From assembly GCA_003220345.1 (NCBI GenBank), contig QHSC01000092.1, positions 1 through 64,000 of the forward strand: a DNA stretch of 64,000 nt. Reading direction: 5' to 3'. This document shows positions 7,176-55,310 of this stretch, one piece after another. The stretch's first letter is position 1, and every line of letters begins with the position of its first letter. Under the pieces are notes generated by a model. That model saw only the letters and a list, made by a program, of their open reading frames with translations. It did no database searches and was not told where the DNA came from. The stretch comes from Candidatus Rokuibacteriota bacterium. GTDB lineage: Bacteria > Methylomirabilota > Methylomirabilia > Rokubacteriales > CSP1-6. The translations under genes and the position numbers were made by a program.

Positions 7176-8752
7176 CGGCAGCGCAGGCCTCGCGCCGCGC
7201 CGGACTCTGGCTCGCGGCGCTCCTTCTCGCGAGTGCCGTCGTCTTCGCGCTTCCTCTCGGCCGCCGCCCGCTCAGCAACCAGGACGAGGCCCGCTATGGT
7301 CTCCTCGCCCGGGAGGCCGTCGAGCATGGCCGCTGGATCCTCCCCGGCGTGCGCGACGAGGTCTACCTCAACAAGCCGCCCCTTTACTTCTGGGTCGTCG
7401 CGGTCTTCGCCCTGCCCTTTGGGGCTGTCACGGATGCCACCGCGCCCATCGCGTCCGTGCTGTCGGCCCTCATGGGGCTCCTCGGCGTGTTCGCCGTCGG
7501 GCGTCGATTGTGGGACGACGACACGGGGCTGGCCGCGGCCGTGGTGCTCGCCACCAGCCCCTTCTATTTCTTCATGGCGCACCAGGTGCTCACCGACATG
7601 ATGCTGACCGCGTGGATGACCTGGGCGCTCTACTTCTACCTCGCCTCGCTGGACGAGGGCGCCCGGCGCGGCGCGCTGGTGGGCTTCTATCTGTGCGCGG
7701 CGGGCGGCCTCGCCGCCAAGGGGCCGGCCGCCCTCATGGTGCTGGTGGCCGCCGTCGCCGCGAGCCTCGCCACGGACGGCGCGCAGGGGCTCAAGCGGCT
7801 CCGGCTGCCCATGGGGGTCGGCATCCTCGCTCTGACGGCGCTGCCGTGGCTCCTGCCCTATCTCCTCCAGCGCGAGAAGAGCTACGGGCGAGCCGTGGTG
7901 ATGACGGACTATCTCGGCTGGTACTTCAAGAGCGCGGTCGGCTCGAGGCTGCAGGCGATCGCCGGACACCTGCTGCGCTTCTTGCCGTGGGGCGCTTTCC
8001 TGATCCCGGCGGCGTGGTGGTGGACGCGGTCGCGCGACGTCGGCCGGCGGCGGGTTCTCGTGTGGGCCGCGACGCTCATCGTGCTGCTGAGCCTCTCGGG
8101 CGAGCAGCGCGCGCGCTACTTCCTTCCCCTCTGGCCCGTGCTGGCGCTCTTCGTCGGCCAGTTCTTCACGAGGGCCCCGGCCCGCCTCGTGGCATGGGCG
8201 AGCGGCGCCTATCTCCTGGTGATGATGGGAGCGGGGGCCTTTCTGCTCTGGGGGGGCGTGTCCGATCCCGACGCCGTCTTTCTTCCCGCCGCGCCGTGGG
8301 AGCGCTGGCTGGTGGCGGGCGCCCTCGTCATCGGGGCGGCGCTCGGGCTCTGGCAGCTTCTCCGCGGCGGCAACGGGTTCGCGGCGGCCACGTGGATGGC
8401 CGCCGGGCTCGGCATTGCTCTCGCGGTGACCGCCGTCGAGTATCCCGCTCGCTTCGCCCAGGCCAACGACTATCGCGGCGTGGCCCAGCGCTTCGTCTCG
8501 CGCCTCGACGCCGGCGCTCCGCTGCTCTCCTATCCGGACGCCAACCTCGCCTGGGATTTCTACATGCGACACCCCGTGCGCGAGGTGCGGAGCGACGCGG
8601 AGGTGAAATCTCTCCTCGCTTCAACGCCCGGGGCGCGCCTCATGCTGCGCGAGGAGGACTGGACCCGTCTTCGCGCCGTCGCCCATCCCACCTGGCGCGT
8701 GCTGGACGAGGGCACGGTGGGCCGCCGCCACTTCGTGCTCCTCGGCGACTAG
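7172..8752 (+). CDS. ArnT/PMT-like GT39-family membrane glycosyltransferase
   Basis: 526 residues with about 10-12 membrane helices. The first periplasmic loop carries SNQDEARYGLLAREAVEHG, the Asp-Glu signature of lipid-linked sugar transferases such as ArnT. Such enzymes move a sugar from a polyprenyl phosphate donor to lipid A or another surface acceptor on the outer face of the inner membrane. The frame has no ATG, GTG or TTG between the lyase gene and the signature; CTG at 7172, overlapping the previous stop as CTGA and preceded by CAGGGG, gives an intact first helix. The ORF track starts at 6836, inside the lyase gene, which is improbable. Acceptor unknown. Confidence 0.78.
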   Translation: MTAAQASRRAGLWLAALLLASAVVFALPLGRRPLSNQDEARYGLLAREAVEHGRWILPGVRDEVYLNKPPLYFWVVAVFALPFGAVTDATAPIASVLSALMGLLGVFAVGRRLWDDDTGLAAAVVLATSPFYFFMAHQVLTDMMLTAWMTWALYFYLASLDEGARRGALVGFYLCAAGGLAAKGPAALMVLVAAVAASLATDGAQGLKRLRLPMGVGILALTALPWLLPYLLQREKSYGRAVVMTDYLGWYFKSAVGSRLQAIAGHLLRFLPWGAFLIPAAWWWTRSRDVGRRRVLVWAATLIVLLSLSGEQRARYFLPLWPVLALFVGQFFTRAPARLVAWASGAYLLVMMGAGAFLLWGGVSDPDAVFLPAAPWERWLVAGALVIGAALGLWQLLRGGNGFAAATWMAAGLGIALAVTAVEYPARFAQANDYRGVAQRFVSRLDAGAPLLSYPDANLAWDFYMRHPVREVRSDAEVKSLLASTPGARLMLREEDWTRLRAVAHPTWRVLDEGTVGRRHFVLLGD

Positions 8753-46090: not shown

Positions 46091-47740
46091 ATGGACGAGC
46101 CACAGGTCTCATCGATAAGCCGTCGCGATCTGCTGAAGCTGGGAGGGGCCGCCATCGCTGCCGGCTCCGGGCTCCCGCTCCTGGATCCGAAGCCGGCGAC
46201 GGCCCAGACCCCCAAGCGGGGCGGCACCTTCCGCCTCCGCATCCACGTGGCGCCCGTCCACTTCGATCCCCAGCAGACGGTGGCCTTTCCCACCATGCAG
46301 GCGATGTCCTTCACCCATAGCCGGCTCGTGAAGGTCAAGGCGGGCTCCTCGGTGAAGCCAGGTACGCAGCCGCTCGAGGCTGATCTGGCCGAGTCCTGGA
46401 CCCAGCCCAACGACACCACGTACATCTTCAAGCTGCGGCGCGGTGCGCGCTGGCATGCAAAGCCACCCGTCAACGGACGCGAGGTGACGGCGGAGGACGT
46501 CAAGTACAGCTACGAGCGCTTCCTCCTGCCCGCCAATCCCAACCGCGGCCTGCTCGAGCAGGTGGACAAGATCGAGGCGGTGGACCGGCACACGGTCAAG
46601 TTCACGCTCAAGGAGCCCTTCGCGTGGTTCCTCGACTCGCTCGCGTCACCCTCGACGTGGATTATCGCCAAGGAAGCCGTGGAGCAGTACGGCGACCTCA
46701 AGCGGCCCGAGAGCTGCGTCGGGACGGGACCGTGGATGCTCGAGCGCTACGAGCCCAACGTGCGATGCACCTGGGTGCGCAACCCCAACTACTTCATCCC
46801 CGGGCTGCCCTACGTCGACAACGTCGAGGTGTCGATCGAGACCGACCCCGCCACCGCGCTGGCGGTGTGGCTGTCCGGCCGCTACGATTTCGCCCCCGAG
46901 TACGGGATGGTCGTGCGCCGGAGCGATCTCGAGGCGGCCAAGCAGCGCAAGCCGAATCTGCAGATGCAGGACTACATCGTCGTCTTCGGGGGCATCACGT
47001 GGGCGAAGTTCGACCAGGATCCCTTCAAGGATCTCCGCGTGCGTCGAGCCCTCCAGATCGCCACCAACTGGCGAGAGGTGCTCGAGACCAACGCGTGGTC
47101 TCAGGGTCGGGGGGCGCCCAACCCGGCCATTCCCGCCGCCTTCAAGGACTGGTCCCTTCCCATCGACCAGCTGCCGCCCGAGAGCCGGAGGCTCTACGAC
47201 TTCGACCCGCAGGAGGCGAAGAGGCTCCTGACGGAGGCCGGTCACTCGAGCGGGTTCAAGACCACGCTGGAGACGACGGCGGGATACGGGCCCGACTACA
47301 TCGACGCCGTTCAGGTCACGGTGGCGGGATGGAAGAAGGCCGGCATCGACGCGGAGATCAAGCTCAAGGAGTACGGCGCCTTCATCTCGAGCACGATCTT
47401 CGGCAAGTTCGACAAGATGGGCGGCGGGCTCTTCGGGGGCTGGACCGATCCCGACAGCTATCTGTATCGCTACTTCTTGCCGGGGCAGCCGCTCAACGCC
47501 TCGGGAGTCAACGATCCCAAGCTCACGGAGATGATCAAGCTCCAGCGTCGCACGTTCAACGTCGCCAAGCGCCGCGAGATGATCTACGACATCCAGCGTT
47601 ACATCTCCCAGCACGTCTGGGCGCTGTACGGGCCGTCCGTCAGCGCGGTCGCCGCCTGGGAGCCCTACGTCAAGAACTTCGGGCCCAACATCGGTCACGA
47701 CTATGGCGGGCGCCTCATGGTCGCCTGGCTGGATCGCTGA
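46091..47740 (+). CDS. ABC substrate-binding protein family 5 (oligopeptide/nickel-type), Tat-like signal
   Basis: 549 residues. N-terminal SISRRDLLKLGGAAIAAGSG is a twin-arginine-type signal. The mature part has the SBP_bac_5 fold: GGTFRLRIHVAPVHFDPQQTV, DLAESWTQPNDTTYIFKLRRGARWH, TAEDVKYSYERFL and IATNWREVLE. It binds peptides, opines, glutathione or similar in the periplasm. No dppBCDF-type permease or ATPase gene lies near; it is followed after 3 nt by an SDR gene. GGAGGAACGCTG precedes the ATG. Confidence 0.88.
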   Translation: MDEPQVSSISRRDLLKLGGAAIAAGSGLPLLDPKPATAQTPKRGGTFRLRIHVAPVHFDPQQTVAFPTMQAMSFTHSRLVKVKAGSSVKPGTQPLEADLAESWTQPNDTTYIFKLRRGARWHAKPPVNGREVTAEDVKYSYERFLLPANPNRGLLEQVDKIEAVDRHTVKFTLKEPFAWFLDSLASPSTWIIAKEAVEQYGDLKRPESCVGTGPWMLERYEPNVRCTWVRNPNYFIPGLPYVDNVEVSIETDPATALAVWLSGRYDFAPEYGMVVRRSDLEAAKQRKPNLQMQDYIVVFGGITWAKFDQDPFKDLRVRRALQIATNWREVLETNAWSQGRGAPNPAIPAAFKDWSLPIDQLPPESRRLYDFDPQEAKRLLTEAGHSSGFKTTLETTAGYGPDYIDAVQVTVAGWKKAGIDAEIKLKEYGAFISSTIFGKFDKMGGGLFGGWTDPDSYLYRYFLPGQPLNASGVNDPKLTEMIKLQRRTFNVAKRREMIYDIQRYISQHVWALYGPSVSAVAAWEPYVKNFGPNIGHDYGGRLMVAWLDR

Positions 47741-47743
47741 GGC

Positions 47744-48571
47744 ATGAAGCTCAAGGACAAGGTAGCGCTGGTGACGGGCGCGGGCTCGGGCATCGGCCGC
47801 GCCATCGCGCAGCTCTTCGCCGAGGAAGGCGCGCGCGTCATCGCCAACGACGTGCGTGAAGAGGCCGCGAAGGAGACGGTGGCGGCGATCTCCTCCGGGG
47901 GATGCGCCATCCAGGCCGACGTCGCCGACAGCGCGCAGGTCAGGGCGATGTTCGCGCAGATCGAGCGCGAGTTCGGGACGCTGGACGTGCTCGTCAACAA
48001 CGCGGGGATCGGGACGGCGGGCAGCTCGGGCGCGAATCGAGACAGGATTCGCGAGCGGTCCGACGCGCGGATGGCCGAGATGCTGAGCGGCCAGGGCATC
48101 CAGACCCACTGGGACATCACCCAGGAGATGAGCGACGAGGCCTGGCATCGCATGATCGCCGTGCACCTGAACGGGACGTTCTTCTGCACGCGCGAGGCCC
48201 TCAAGCTCATGAGCCGGCGCAACCAGGGCGCCATCATCAACATGTCGAGCGTGGCCGCCCTCATGGGGCTCGACACCGTGCCGCACTACAGCGCGGCCAA
48301 GGCGGGCATCCTGGGATTCACCCGCGCCGTCGCCCGCGAGATGGGCTCGCGCAAGATCCGCGTCAACGCCATCTGCCCCGGCTTCATCGACACGCCCATG
48401 ACCCAGCCCATCTCGCCGATGATGCGCGCGGCCACCGTCGCGCGCACCCCACTCGGCCGCTGGGCGGAGCCCGTGGAGGTGGCCAGGACCGCCCTCTTCC
48501 TCGCCTCCGACGACAGCGCCTTCTTCACGGGCCAGTGGCTCTCCCCCAACGGCGGCCTCTTCATCGGCTGA
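47744..48571 (+). CDS. SDR family oxidoreductase
   Basis: 275 residues, classical SDR: TGAGSGIG (about 12-19), NNAG, catalytic Ser in MSSVAALMG, and HYSAAK with Tyr and Lys; ends FFTGQWLSPNGG. It carries an insertion (about 85-130, ANRDRIRERSDARMAEMLSGQ) between strand 4 and helix 4 that is longer than in FabG. Co-transcribed with the binding protein before it. Substrate unknown. A GGGGTCAGGTCT hairpin stands immediately behind the stop. Confidence 0.87.
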   Translation: MKLKDKVALVTGAGSGIGRAIAQLFAEEGARVIANDVREEAAKETVAAISSGGCAIQADVADSAQVRAMFAQIEREFGTLDVLVNNAGIGTAGSSGANRDRIRERSDARMAEMLSGQGIQTHWDITQEMSDEAWHRMIAVHLNGTFFCTREALKLMSRRNQGAIINMSSVAALMGLDTVPHYSAAKAGILGFTRAVAREMGSRKIRVNAICPGFIDTPMTQPISPMMRAATVARTPLGRWAEPVEVARTALFLASDDSAFFTGQWLSPNGGLFIG

Positions 48572-48579
48572 GCGGGGCT

Positions 48580-48684
48580 GAGCGGGGTCAGGTCTCACAT
48601 TCCAACATCCAACGGTCTATTCTTGAGGGCCCGACGCCGCGCGCCTCGTCCAAATGTTGGAATGTGAGACCTGACCCCCCGCTC
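48580..48684. repeat. REP-like GGGGTCAGGTCT inverted repeat (element A)
   Basis: Left arm from 48580 (GAGCGGGGTCAGGTCTCACA...) and right arm from 48654 to 48684 are complementary over about 29 nt, apart from two extra G/C. The loop is 45 nt. It sits between two convergent stop codons (48571 and 48683) and may work as a bidirectional terminator. The same arm sequence recurs at 55226-55310. Confidence 0.85.
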
Positions 48685-49240
48685 AATCGATGCGAAAGCG
48701 GGCCCGGATTTCGTCGGGGCGCTCGGAGTAGGGCGGGATCGCCTCGGCCGGATCGAACGCCACTTCCACCACGAGCACGGCCGGCTCGCCGGCAGATCGC
48801 GCATTCGGAAAGGTCGCGCGAAGGCCGGCCACGTCGCGCACGCTCTCCACGTGGCGAATGCCCGCCGCGCGGGCGAGGGCCGCCCAGTCGACGGGCGCGG
48901 GAGGCAGCGCCTGGCCGCCGGAAGACTCATAGCGCCCGTTGACCCAGAGCAGGATGCTGAGGTTCGGAGGGCGGGCGGCGGCCACGGTGGCCAGCACATT
49001 GGGACTCATCAGGAGCGAGCCGTCTCCCTCGAGGGCGACCAGGTGGCGATCCGGACGCTGCAGGGCCATGCCCAGCGCGAGCGGAATGGCCGCCCCCATG
49101 GAGTCGCAAAGCGCGAAGACGGGGCTGGGCACCTCCATGTGGGGCAGATAGCGCGCGTTGGCGCCCAGACAGGAGACGAGAACGTCGCGCGGCGTCAGCA
49201 TGGACACCAGCGCGTCGAGGAGCGGCTTGCGCGCGCTCAC
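48683..49240 (-). CDS. ThDP-dependent decarboxylase, C-terminal (beta/PP) subunit, ComE/phosphonopyruvate-decarboxylase type
   Basis: 185 residues, GTG start overlapping the alpha subunit stop (GTGA). The ThDP/Mg2+ motif is LEGDGSLLMSPNVLATVAAARPPNLSILLWVNGRYESSGG; the early DVLVSCLGANARYLPHM and SMGAAIPLALGMAL are typical of sulfopyruvate decarboxylase beta subunits. With the alpha subunit it should decarboxylate a 2-oxo acid bearing a sulfonate, phosphonate or other acidic group. The ORF-track start at 49504 is antisense-like extension in the alpha gene. Its last codons touch the REP-like element. Confidence 0.8.
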   Translation of the reverse strand: MSARKPLLDALVSMLTPRDVLVSCLGANARYLPHMEVPSPVFALCDSMGAAIPLALGMALQRPDRHLVALEGDGSLLMSPNVLATVAAARPPNLSILLWVNGRYESSGGQALPPAPVDWAALARAAGIRHVESVRDVAGLRATFPNARSAGEPAVLVVEVAFDPAEAIPPYSERPDEIRARFRID

Positions 49241-49731
49241 GCCAGATCCTCGCCGCTGATGAGCAGGACGTAGGGGCTCGCGGACTCGGCGGCCGCCTCC
49301 ACGCCCTGCCTGACCTGGGCGGCGAGATCGCGCCCACGATCGACGACGGCATACCGGAGTCGCCAGGCCTGGAGCGTGGCCTCCGTCACGCGGCCCTTGG
49401 GCTCGTGATAGTAGATGGGGTCGCGCGAGTCGCCGCGGAAGGAGACGAGAAAGAAGCAGGGGAGACGGTAGAGCTCCACGAGGCCCGCGAGGATGCCGCC
49501 GCAATTCAAGAGGCCGGCGTTCTGGATGAGCACGGCGCCGCGCCCACCCGCCAGGTTCGCCCCGCAGGCGACGGCCACCGCTTCCTCCTCGCGGGCCACA
49601 TCCACCACGCGGATGGCGGACGAGCGGCGCACCTCCTCCACGAGCTTGCCGATCCAGGTGTCCGGCACCGAGGCCGCGATGGTCACGCCCGCGCTCTCGA
49701 GGCCGGCGACGATCTGGCGCGCTCCGGTCAT
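49237..49731 (-). CDS. ThDP-dependent decarboxylase, N-terminal (alpha/PYR) subunit, ComD type
   Basis: 164 residues. GVTIAASVPDTWIGKLVEEV, VDVAREEEAVAVACGANLAGG (with the ThDP-activating Glu) and VLIQNAGLLNCGGILAGLVELYRLP correspond to the PYR domain of split sulfopyruvate/phosphonopyruvate decarboxylases. ATG 49731 lies one base after the stop of a PotA-like remnant; the ORF-track extension is that remnant in another frame. Whether the substrate is sulfopyruvate, phosphonopyruvate or an unrelated 2-oxo acid cannot be told; no sulfolactate or phosphonate gene is present. Confidence 0.8.
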   Translation of the reverse strand: MTGARQIVAGLESAGVTIAASVPDTWIGKLVEEVRRSSAIRVVDVAREEEAVAVACGANLAGGRGAVLIQNAGLLNCGGILAGLVELYRLPCFFLVSFRGDSRDPIYYHEPKGRVTEATLQAWRLRYAVVDRGRDLAAQVRQGVEAAAESASPYVLLISGEDLA

Positions 49732-49732
49732 G

Positions 49733-49945
49733 TCAGCTTCGTGGCCCGGATGCTGTCGCCGCTCGCGGCGTGAGAGACATGAAGGCCTCCGCGGGCAGAT
49801 GCAGGAGGAGCGTCCGCCCCGGCACGAGGCCGGGAGGCGCGGGCTCGGGGACAAAGGCCAAGAGCCGCCGGCCTCCGACGATCTCCGCCGTCACCTCGGT
49901 CTGCAGCCCCCGGTAGGTAACGCCGACGATGCGCGCCGTGGCATT
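49733..49945 (-). pseudogene. Remnant: C-terminal TOBE region of a PotA-like ABC ATPase
   Basis: 70 codons in an open frame with no ATG or GTG near its 5' end: NATARIVGVTYRGLQTEVTA, then a VGGRRLLAFVPEPAPPGLVP stretch and LLLHLPAEAFMSL. This is the final TOBE_2 strand pattern of spermidine/putrescine-type (PotA) ATPases. The frame is closed upstream by a TAG, and all of the ATPase domain is missing. The remnant's stop is one base from the ThDP alpha-subunit ATG, so the intact ancestor probably had potA-like and decarboxylase genes in one operon. It is absent from the ORF track. Confidence 0.65.
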
Positions 49946-50097
49946 CCTCCTGTAGGTGGGAAAACTCGCGGCTATCCTAGTGCAATCGGTCGTCGCACGT
50001 CCAGCGGAGCTGCCCCCTGATCCACTCAGCCCTCGCCTCGCGGCGCAAATATCTCCTCACCTTGACACTGCGCGAGAGGCCGTGTTACTCACCCGCA

Positions 50098-51471
50098 ATG
50101 GACGACGGCGTTCTGCTGCGTACCGAAGGGCTGTGTCGCAACTTCGGCAGCCTCGCCGCCGTGCAGGACGTCACCCTCACCGTTCGCGCGGGCGAGCTTC
50201 GCTCGATCATCGGCCCCAACGGGGCGGGGAAGACGACGCTGTTTCGCCTGATCTCGGGCGAGATGTCGCCGAGCTCGGGCCGCATCCAGTTCAAAGGCCG
50301 GGAGATCGCGGGGCTGCCGCAGCACACGGTGGCCAGGCTCGGCATCGCCAAGTCCTACCAGATCACCAATATCTTTCCGCATCTCAGCGTGCTCGAGAAC
50401 GTGCGCGTGGCCGCGCAGGGGTATGCGCACGCCTTCGACTTCTGGTCGCGAGCCGACCGTCTGAGCGCGGCGCGGGAGCGCGCCCGGGTCGTCCTCGATT
50501 CGGTGGGCCTCGGCGAGAAGACCGAGCGCGTGGCCGCCTTTCTCTCCCATGGCGAGAAGCGTCACCTCGAGATCGCCATCGCCCTCGCGCCCGAGCCGAC
50601 CCTGCTCCTCCTCGACGAGCCGACGGCGGGCATGAGCCCCGAGGAGACGGACTCGACCATGGTGCTCATCCGCGCCCTCGCCAAGGGGCGGACCATCCTC
50701 GTCGTCGAGCACAAGATGAAGCTCGTGATGGGCATTTCCGACCGCATCACGGTCCTGCATCAGGGCCAGGTCCTGGCCGAGGGCACCCCCGAAGAGATCC
50801 GGAACAGCGCCCACATCCTTCAGGGCGTCTCGCTGACTCTCGAGCCTAGCGAGGTGGTCGCGCTCATCGGGCGCAACGGAGCGGGGAAGACCACGACGCT
50901 CCGGACGATCATGGGCATCGCCAAGCCCACCCGAGGCTCCATCCGGTTTCGCGGCGAGGACATCACGCACCGGGAGCCCCACGAGGTGGCCCGGCGCGGC
51001 ATCGCGTGGATCCCCGAGGAGCGCCGCGTGCTGCCCAACCTGACCGTGCTGCAGAATCTCCAGCTCGGGATGCTCGGGGCGAGGACGCAGGACCAGGACG
51101 CGGTGGTCGAGACCGCCTTCGACTATTTCCCGAGGCTCCGCGAGCGCAAGAATCAGCCCGGCCGGCTTCTTTCCGGCGGCGAGCAGCAGATGCTCGCCAT
51201 TGCGCGGGGGCTGGTGGCCCGACCCGAGCTGATGCTGGTGGACGAGCCGACGGAAGGCCTCGCCCCCCTGCTCGTCGAGAGCCTCACGGAGATCCTGGGC
51301 TCCATCAACAAGAGCGGCACGTCCATCCTGCTCGTCGAGCAGACGCTCGACGTCGCTCTCTCCCTCGCGCATCGCCTCTACGTGATGGACCAGGGCCAGG
51401 TGCAGTTCACGGGAACTCCTGACGAGCTCCGCAGGAATCCCGCCGTGCAGCAGCGCTTCCTCGGCGTTTAG
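50098..51471 (+). CDS. LivG-LivF fused ABC ATPase (system 3)
   Basis: 457 residues with two ATPase domains. Half 1 (1-235) is LivG: A-loop Phe in RNFGSLAAV, Walker A GPNGAGKTT, signature FLSHGEKRHLEIAIAL, Walker B LLLLDEPTAGMSP. Half 2 (236-457) is LivF: Walker A GRNGAGKTTT, WIPEERRVLPNLTVLQNL, signature LSGGEQQMLAIARGL, Walker B LMLVDEPTEGLAP. The junction EEIRNSAHILQGVSL joins the last loop of LivG to the middle of LivF: LivG's final VIEAYLG-type helix and about the first 20 residues of LivF, with its A-loop Tyr, are missing. It faces the livKHM-VOC cluster tail to tail and is its likely motor. ATG 50098 taken over TTG 50062. Confidence 0.9.
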   Translation: MDDGVLLRTEGLCRNFGSLAAVQDVTLTVRAGELRSIIGPNGAGKTTLFRLISGEMSPSSGRIQFKGREIAGLPQHTVARLGIAKSYQITNIFPHLSVLENVRVAAQGYAHAFDFWSRADRLSAARERARVVLDSVGLGEKTERVAAFLSHGEKRHLEIAIALAPEPTLLLLDEPTAGMSPEETDSTMVLIRALAKGRTILVVEHKMKLVMGISDRITVLHQGQVLAEGTPEEIRNSAHILQGVSLTLEPSEVVALIGRNGAGKTTTLRTIMGIAKPTRGSIRFRGEDITHREPHEVARRGIAWIPEERRVLPNLTVLQNLQLGMLGARTQDQDAVVETAFDYFPRLRERKNQPGRLLSGGEQQMLAIARGLVARPELMLVDEPTEGLAPLLVESLTEILGSINKSGTSILLVEQTLDVALSLAHRLYVMDQGQVQFTGTPDELRRNPAVQQRFLGV

Positions 51472-51586
51472 CAGGCGGCGGATAAAGTCCCATCTGTTTC
51501 GTTGTCGCCCTCGGCTGCACGCTCAACGCACAGAGAGCACGCCTCGCGTGTGGATCAACTCGGGCCGCGGTGAGGATGAGCACGGC

Positions 51587-55177: not shown

Positions 55178-55310
55178 ACCGGGGTCAGGTCTTGCAATCC
55201 CACACAGCAGGTCAAACCGGCAAACCGGGGTCAGGTCTCACAATCCTACATCGACGTCGCGAGGGGGCTGGAGCGGGCTGGCGGATGTTGGATTGTGAGA
55301 CCTGACCCCG
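55177..55310. repeat. REP-like GGGGTCAGGTCT element B
   Basis: Left arm CGGGGTCAGGTCTCACAATC (from 55226 to 55252) and right arm (55284-55310) are complementary over 27 nt with one mismatch; loop 31 nt. A partial extra left copy, CCGGGGTCAGGTCTTGCAATCC, lies at about 55181-55202, with the preceding GTCAAACCGG also duplicated. Same family as element A (48580-48684). It fills the gap between a kinase stop and the liv system 3 promoter. Confidence 0.85.

Follow-up and report, generated by a model that had tools for sequence, protein, structure and literature searches.

We analysed a 64,000-nucleotide stretch of DNA (the window), whose source we take to be a soil or groundwater bacterium related to the Rokubacteria. 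On its minus strand, a 70-codon reading frame runs from 49945 to 49736 and ends at a TGA codon (49735-49733); its translation is NATARIVGVTYRGLQTEVTAEIVGGRRLLAFVPEPAPPGLVPGRTLLLHLPAEAFMSLTPRAATASGPRS*. A plus-strand reading of 49733-49945 was rejected because the frame there is unrelated. When G+C content is high, as in this genome, open frames of such a length carry little meaning by themselves, and homology has to decide what this one represents. Pfam searches matched the 70 codons to TOBE_2 (PF08402) at 22.7 bits, above the gathering threshold of 21, with an E-value of 1e-4. The match covers positions 18-72 of the 76-position profile and thus lacks the beginning of the domain; the intact PotA-like protein of G025, a genome of the same genus, covers positions 1-72. 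Among 57 genomes of the same family, the best match was the C terminus of this G025 protein (85% identity over 65 residues, E-value 4e-32), and the DNA is 86% identical to G025 contig C138 up to position 8091. The remaining matches of the 70 residues in these genomes sit in long open frames, and those examined were the ends of full ATPases. A preliminary description of this DNA had read the frame as the end of a PotA-type ATPase and had named a lack of TOBE_2 similarity as the outcome that would overturn this reading; both the domain match and the identity to the syntenic PotA end bear the reading out. We thus annotate 49736..49939 (minus strand) as the remnant of a PotA-like ATPase, comprising its C-terminal 68 codons (the TOBE_2 part and tail).

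Pfam detected no ABC_tran domain in the 70 codons, which therefore lack the ABC_tran-before-TOBE arrangement of a PotA-like ATPase, and an NCBIfam search with the same codons returned no match. The remnant does not begin with an in-frame ATG, GTG or TTG. The earlier statement that the frame has neither a start nor an ATPase domain is accordingly accurate for conventional starts, the first in-frame candidates being ACG at 49939, GTG at 49894 and ATG at 49780. Upstream, the frame stays open to 50056, and the DNA past 49940 aligns with the leader of a lost operon rather than with PotA. The remnant is not a functional transporter part.

A single C separates the stop codon of the remnant from the ATG (49731-49729) of the next minus-strand gene (TGA-C-ATG), just as had been described, albeit with the strand unstated. 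This gene encodes the alpha subunit of a ComD/RhiE-like thiamine diphosphate (ThDP) decarboxylase (49237..49731; TPP_enzyme_N, PF02776, 37.4 bits). Its stop codon is overlapped by the GTG start of the ComE/RhiF-like beta gene (48683..49240, minus strand; TPP_enzyme_C, PF02775, 63.7 bits). Both scores exceed the gathering thresholds, and the two adjacent, full-length genes thus have the composition of a split ThDP 2-oxoacid decarboxylase.

Deletion junction and neighbouring deletions

The window is collinear with locus L043 on G025 contig C138, with 84-93% DNA identity. At the syntenic place, G025 carries a PotA-like ATPase of 364 aa with both ABC_tran and TOBE_2. blastn alignment matched window positions 48682-49939 to L043 6833-8091 and positions 49939-50808 to L043 11562-12439. 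The intervening 3,470 bp, which encode a substrate-binding protein (SBP), PotB, PotC and nearly all of PotA, are absent from the window at a junction between 49939 and 49940 (J1). The breakpoint had been proposed near 49946, and the alignment puts it 6 bases away; the transporter that the preliminary description had supposed lost is the SBP-PotB-PotC-PotA segment still present in G025. Judged by eye, microhomology at J1 does not exceed about 4 nt (GCCG).

The order SBP-PotB-PotC-PotA-alpha-beta was found in G025, G023 and G041 (the beta gene of G041 being cut by the contig end), and PotA also directly precedes alpha in G022, G039 and G030. Since these six genomes share the PotA-alpha order, the presence of the transporter is ancestral and its deletion derived; at this junction, outgroups still have the segment that the window lacks. 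We found no orthologous transporter elsewhere in the source genome (96.6% complete), where the closest SBP relative had 24% identity. A DNA search of this genome with the lost genes recovered only paralogous ATPase stretches near 70% identity, and the permease and SBP stretch had no match.

To the right of J1, the window retains the leader that the lost operon had in common with the divergent livG gene (49952..50097, minus strand; aligned with L043 11562-11728). The Shine-Dalgarno sequence AGGAGG of the lost SBP gene is retained as well, at 49946..49951 (minus strand), and now stands 6 nt ahead of the in-frame ACG at 49939-49937. The SBP start of G025 reads AGGAGG-TAGGCC-ATG, and the corresponding sequence of the window, AGGAGG-AATGCC-ACG, runs into the PotA frame. 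The Shine-Dalgarno pairing energies are -11.7 kcal/mol at the G025 SBP start and -10.3 kcal/mol at the window ACG. Neither the leader nor the region around it matched Rfam at a meaningful score, and scans for sigma-70-like promoters and terminators yielded nothing beyond shuffled sequences.

Two further segments are missing close by. At J2 (50808|50809; blastn break at L043 12439/12590), 150 bp spanning the 3′ end of livG and the 5′ end of livF, including the first LivF residues, have been removed in frame, leaving a fused livG-livF ORF of 457 aa (50098..51471, plus strand). The two genes are separate in G025 and six other genomes, and the fused ATPase may be either dead or a tandem ATPase. 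At J3, about 1.2 kb is gone, and with it an acyl-CoA dehydrogenase gene between livF and a VOC gene that is present in G025, G041, G002, G004, G001 and G023. The order livG, livF, acyl-CoA dehydrogenase, VOC is intact in the last five of these, which identifies J2 and J3 as losses in the lineage of the window. J3 breaks inside a dispersed long-hairpin repeat of ~130 bp that directly follows livF (G025 copy, L043 13250-13385; fold z of an intact copy, -8.07). The window copy (51469..51550, plus strand; break at 51550|51562) keeps only the first 82 bases, which are 94% identical to the corresponding part of the G025 copy, and about 25 copies of the repeat occur in this genome among the matches listed.

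Some other local features were observed. Read from G025, all three deleted segments start with CAGC at their left ends (window 49940, 50809 and 51551 versus L043 8092, 12440 and 13332), which may be a coincidence. A short inverted-repeat element, GGGGTCAGGTCTCACATTCCAAC...GTTGGAATGTGAGACCTGACCCC, resembling the ends of small mobile elements, occurs at 48566-48690 and 55226-55310, with three partial copies in the window. In addition, a gene for a family-5 peptide-type substrate-binding protein (46091-47740) is present in the window and absent at this place in G025.

Origin of the remnant

The explanation that best accommodates these observations, and that we hold to be very probable together with the residual role described below, is that a deletion took the whole uptake system and that the fragment is its scar. 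The ancestor would have had a divergent gene pair, with livG-livF running rightward and SBP-PotB-PotC-PotA-like ATPase-alpha-beta leftward. A deletion of ~3.47 kb, from approximately the SBP start codon to approximately codon 295 of the ATPase, would then have occurred in the lineage of the window. The alignment shows the outcome: the last 68 ATPase codons now directly follow the leader of the operon with its Shine-Dalgarno sequence, and the alpha and beta genes behind them are intact. What remains of the ATPase gene would likely act as an open 5′ region, possibly translated, through which ribosomes reach the alpha start, which here lacks a Shine-Dalgarno sequence. As alpha and beta are intact and conserved, the decarboxylase presumably still works, on a substrate that would be made intracellularly or imported by another route.

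The main challenge to this account is an assembly artefact, in which the operon would be complete in the living organism and the 3.5 kb, like the two other stretches, would be missing from the contig alone. The sequence comes from a metagenome bin that comprises 429 contigs and has an estimated contamination of 7.27%, three derived deletions within 1.6 kb are many for one place, and the dispersed repeat at J3 is of the kind found in many copies. However, no more than about 4 nt is common to the two sides of J1 or of J2, which is much shorter than any k-mer used in assembly and leaves nothing to bridge; moreover, the missing segments were found on no other contig of the bin, and the rest of the contig is collinear with G025. 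We therefore consider an artefact quite unlikely. That alpha-beta was instead inserted into potA, rather than potA being deleted, would fit with the occurrence of this gene pair in other contexts, such as after an acyl-CoA dehydrogenase in G013-G021, but it is refuted by the syntenic order of G025, G023 and G041, in which alpha directly follows a full-length PotA, and the DNA to the right of J1 is operon leader and not potA. The probability left to insertion is negligible.

Deletion also accounts for the fragment better than does the idea of a small, independent TOBE protein that has its own function, such as binding a ligand or associating with another PotA. Such a protein would be in keeping with the frame still being open, with the strong Shine-Dalgarno sequence 6 nt before the in-frame ACG, and with core changes that are mostly synonymous: relative to G025, dN/dS is 0.21 for the remnant including its tail and 0.11 for each of alpha and beta. 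A recent deletion, however, explains the low remnant value equally well, without any present function. Furthermore, the first 17 TOBE_2 positions and a conventional start are absent, and elsewhere in the 57 genomes the matches belong to long frames. Of the polarised amino-acid changes, 5 of 6 in the remnant fell on the branch of the window, compared with 11 of 20 for alpha and beta combined, although these numbers are small. Taken together, we regard a free-standing TOBE protein as very improbable.

Translation of the alpha gene

In most relatives, the start codon of alpha either overlaps the stop codon of the preceding gene or directly adjoins it, usually with no evident Shine-Dalgarno sequence, an arrangement that points to translational coupling of the two genes. 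At the alpha start, the pairing energy is -2.5 kcal/mol in the window versus -7.9 kcal/mol in G025. Several candidate start sites in the remnant were considered, among them ATG 49780, which would begin a candidate coupling mini-ORF, MSLTPRAATASGPRS* (49733..49780, minus strand), with a GGAGG five bases ahead of it at 49790-49786 and a TGA 1 nt before the alpha ATG. The pairing energy at this ATG is -9.5 kcal/mol in the window versus +0.4 kcal/mol at the same site in G025, and 2.7% of the internal ATGs in window genes score as well. On the basis of these start-site features, it is possible that part of the remnant is translated and serves alpha. A stronger version, which we consider unlikely, is that the deletion rewired translation of the decarboxylase: alpha would have lost its Shine-Dalgarno sequence, the ATPase tail would have gained the GGAGG and would encode a 15-codon leader peptide, and ribosomes terminating at its stop codon would re-initiate on alpha. 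If so, the scar would be a newly made translational leader.

The importer-decarboxylase pairing and known systems

The remnant is the end of an ATPase of the PotA/PotABCD type (TIGR01187, PF08402; also PhnSTUV-like). The operon of the relatives resembles PotABCD in having an SBP, two permeases and an ATPase with a C-terminal TOBE_2 domain, whereas the window keeps only the last 68 codons. The preliminary description had expected an intact potA-comD-comE-like order in relatives to reveal the decarboxylase substrate. The order was indeed found, but the substrate was not revealed by it because the parts of the intact transporter scored below the NCBIfam equivalog cut-offs. Conservation of the operon makes it plausible that the lost transporter once supplied the decarboxylase.

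Known heteromeric ThDP decarboxylases are ComDE, acting on sulfopyruvate, and RhiEF, acting on phosphonopyruvate (PDB 9iz3/9iz4; PMC12141560). Like these, the present pair consists of two adjacent genes, TPP_N alpha and TPP_C beta; it is homologous to ComDE over nearly the full length and to RhiE and RhiF with E-values of 4e-7 and 7e-13, respectively. The scores nevertheless fall below the ComD, ComE and Ppd cut-offs (TIGR03845, 106.8 versus 147.95 for alpha; TIGR03846, 104 versus 221.5 for beta; TIGR03297, 69.9 and 95.0 versus 312.5, the last being a single-chain model beyond the reach of a split pair). The window alpha also differs in its motif VLIQNAGLLNCGG, and the neighbours of alpha-beta in relatives include genes for hydantoinase A/B, an SDR and molybdopterin hydroxylase (xanthine-dehydrogenase-type) subunits. 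Alpha-beta probably act on a different 2-oxo acid than do ComDE and RhiEF.

The phenomenon is ordinary gene loss, and deletion of importer genes is already known. In Clostridioides difficile, ABC transporter genes (SBP and ATPase) have been lost convergently, repeats at the locus are thought to facilitate the loss, and experiments tied it to reduced tyrosine uptake (PMC5951980). Importer genes for an SBP and an ATPase are likewise deleted here; unlike the C. difficile case, this deletion is known from one assembled genome, and J1 lacks a long repeat, the hairpin repeat being at J3 only. A literature search on gene loss in Rokubacteria turned up nothing specific, C. difficile providing the only analogue found. 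The present case indicates that a decapitated domain can be spotted, and an ancestral operon correctly inferred, by a reader of raw sequence.

A by-product of this analysis is an uncharacterised, patchily distributed pairing, in Rokubacteria, of a PotABCD-like importer with a ComDE/RhiEF-like split decarboxylase, frequently next to the hydantoinase A/B and xanthine-dehydrogenase-type genes. A scan of genome contigs with alpha returned eight Rokubacteria loci and no wider distribution. The importer occurs with no alpha-beta nearby in three genomes (G026-G028), and alpha-beta are found at eight related loci that lack the importer, so the association of the two is recurrent but not obligatory. 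Genomes with and without the importer form a pair suited to testing its cargo. In some relatives, an acyl-CoA dehydrogenase gene lies directly before alpha. In genus g7 (L047-L051), this is the arrangement at the location that the importer occupies in G041; it possibly reflects a second, independent loss of the importer or its gain in G041.
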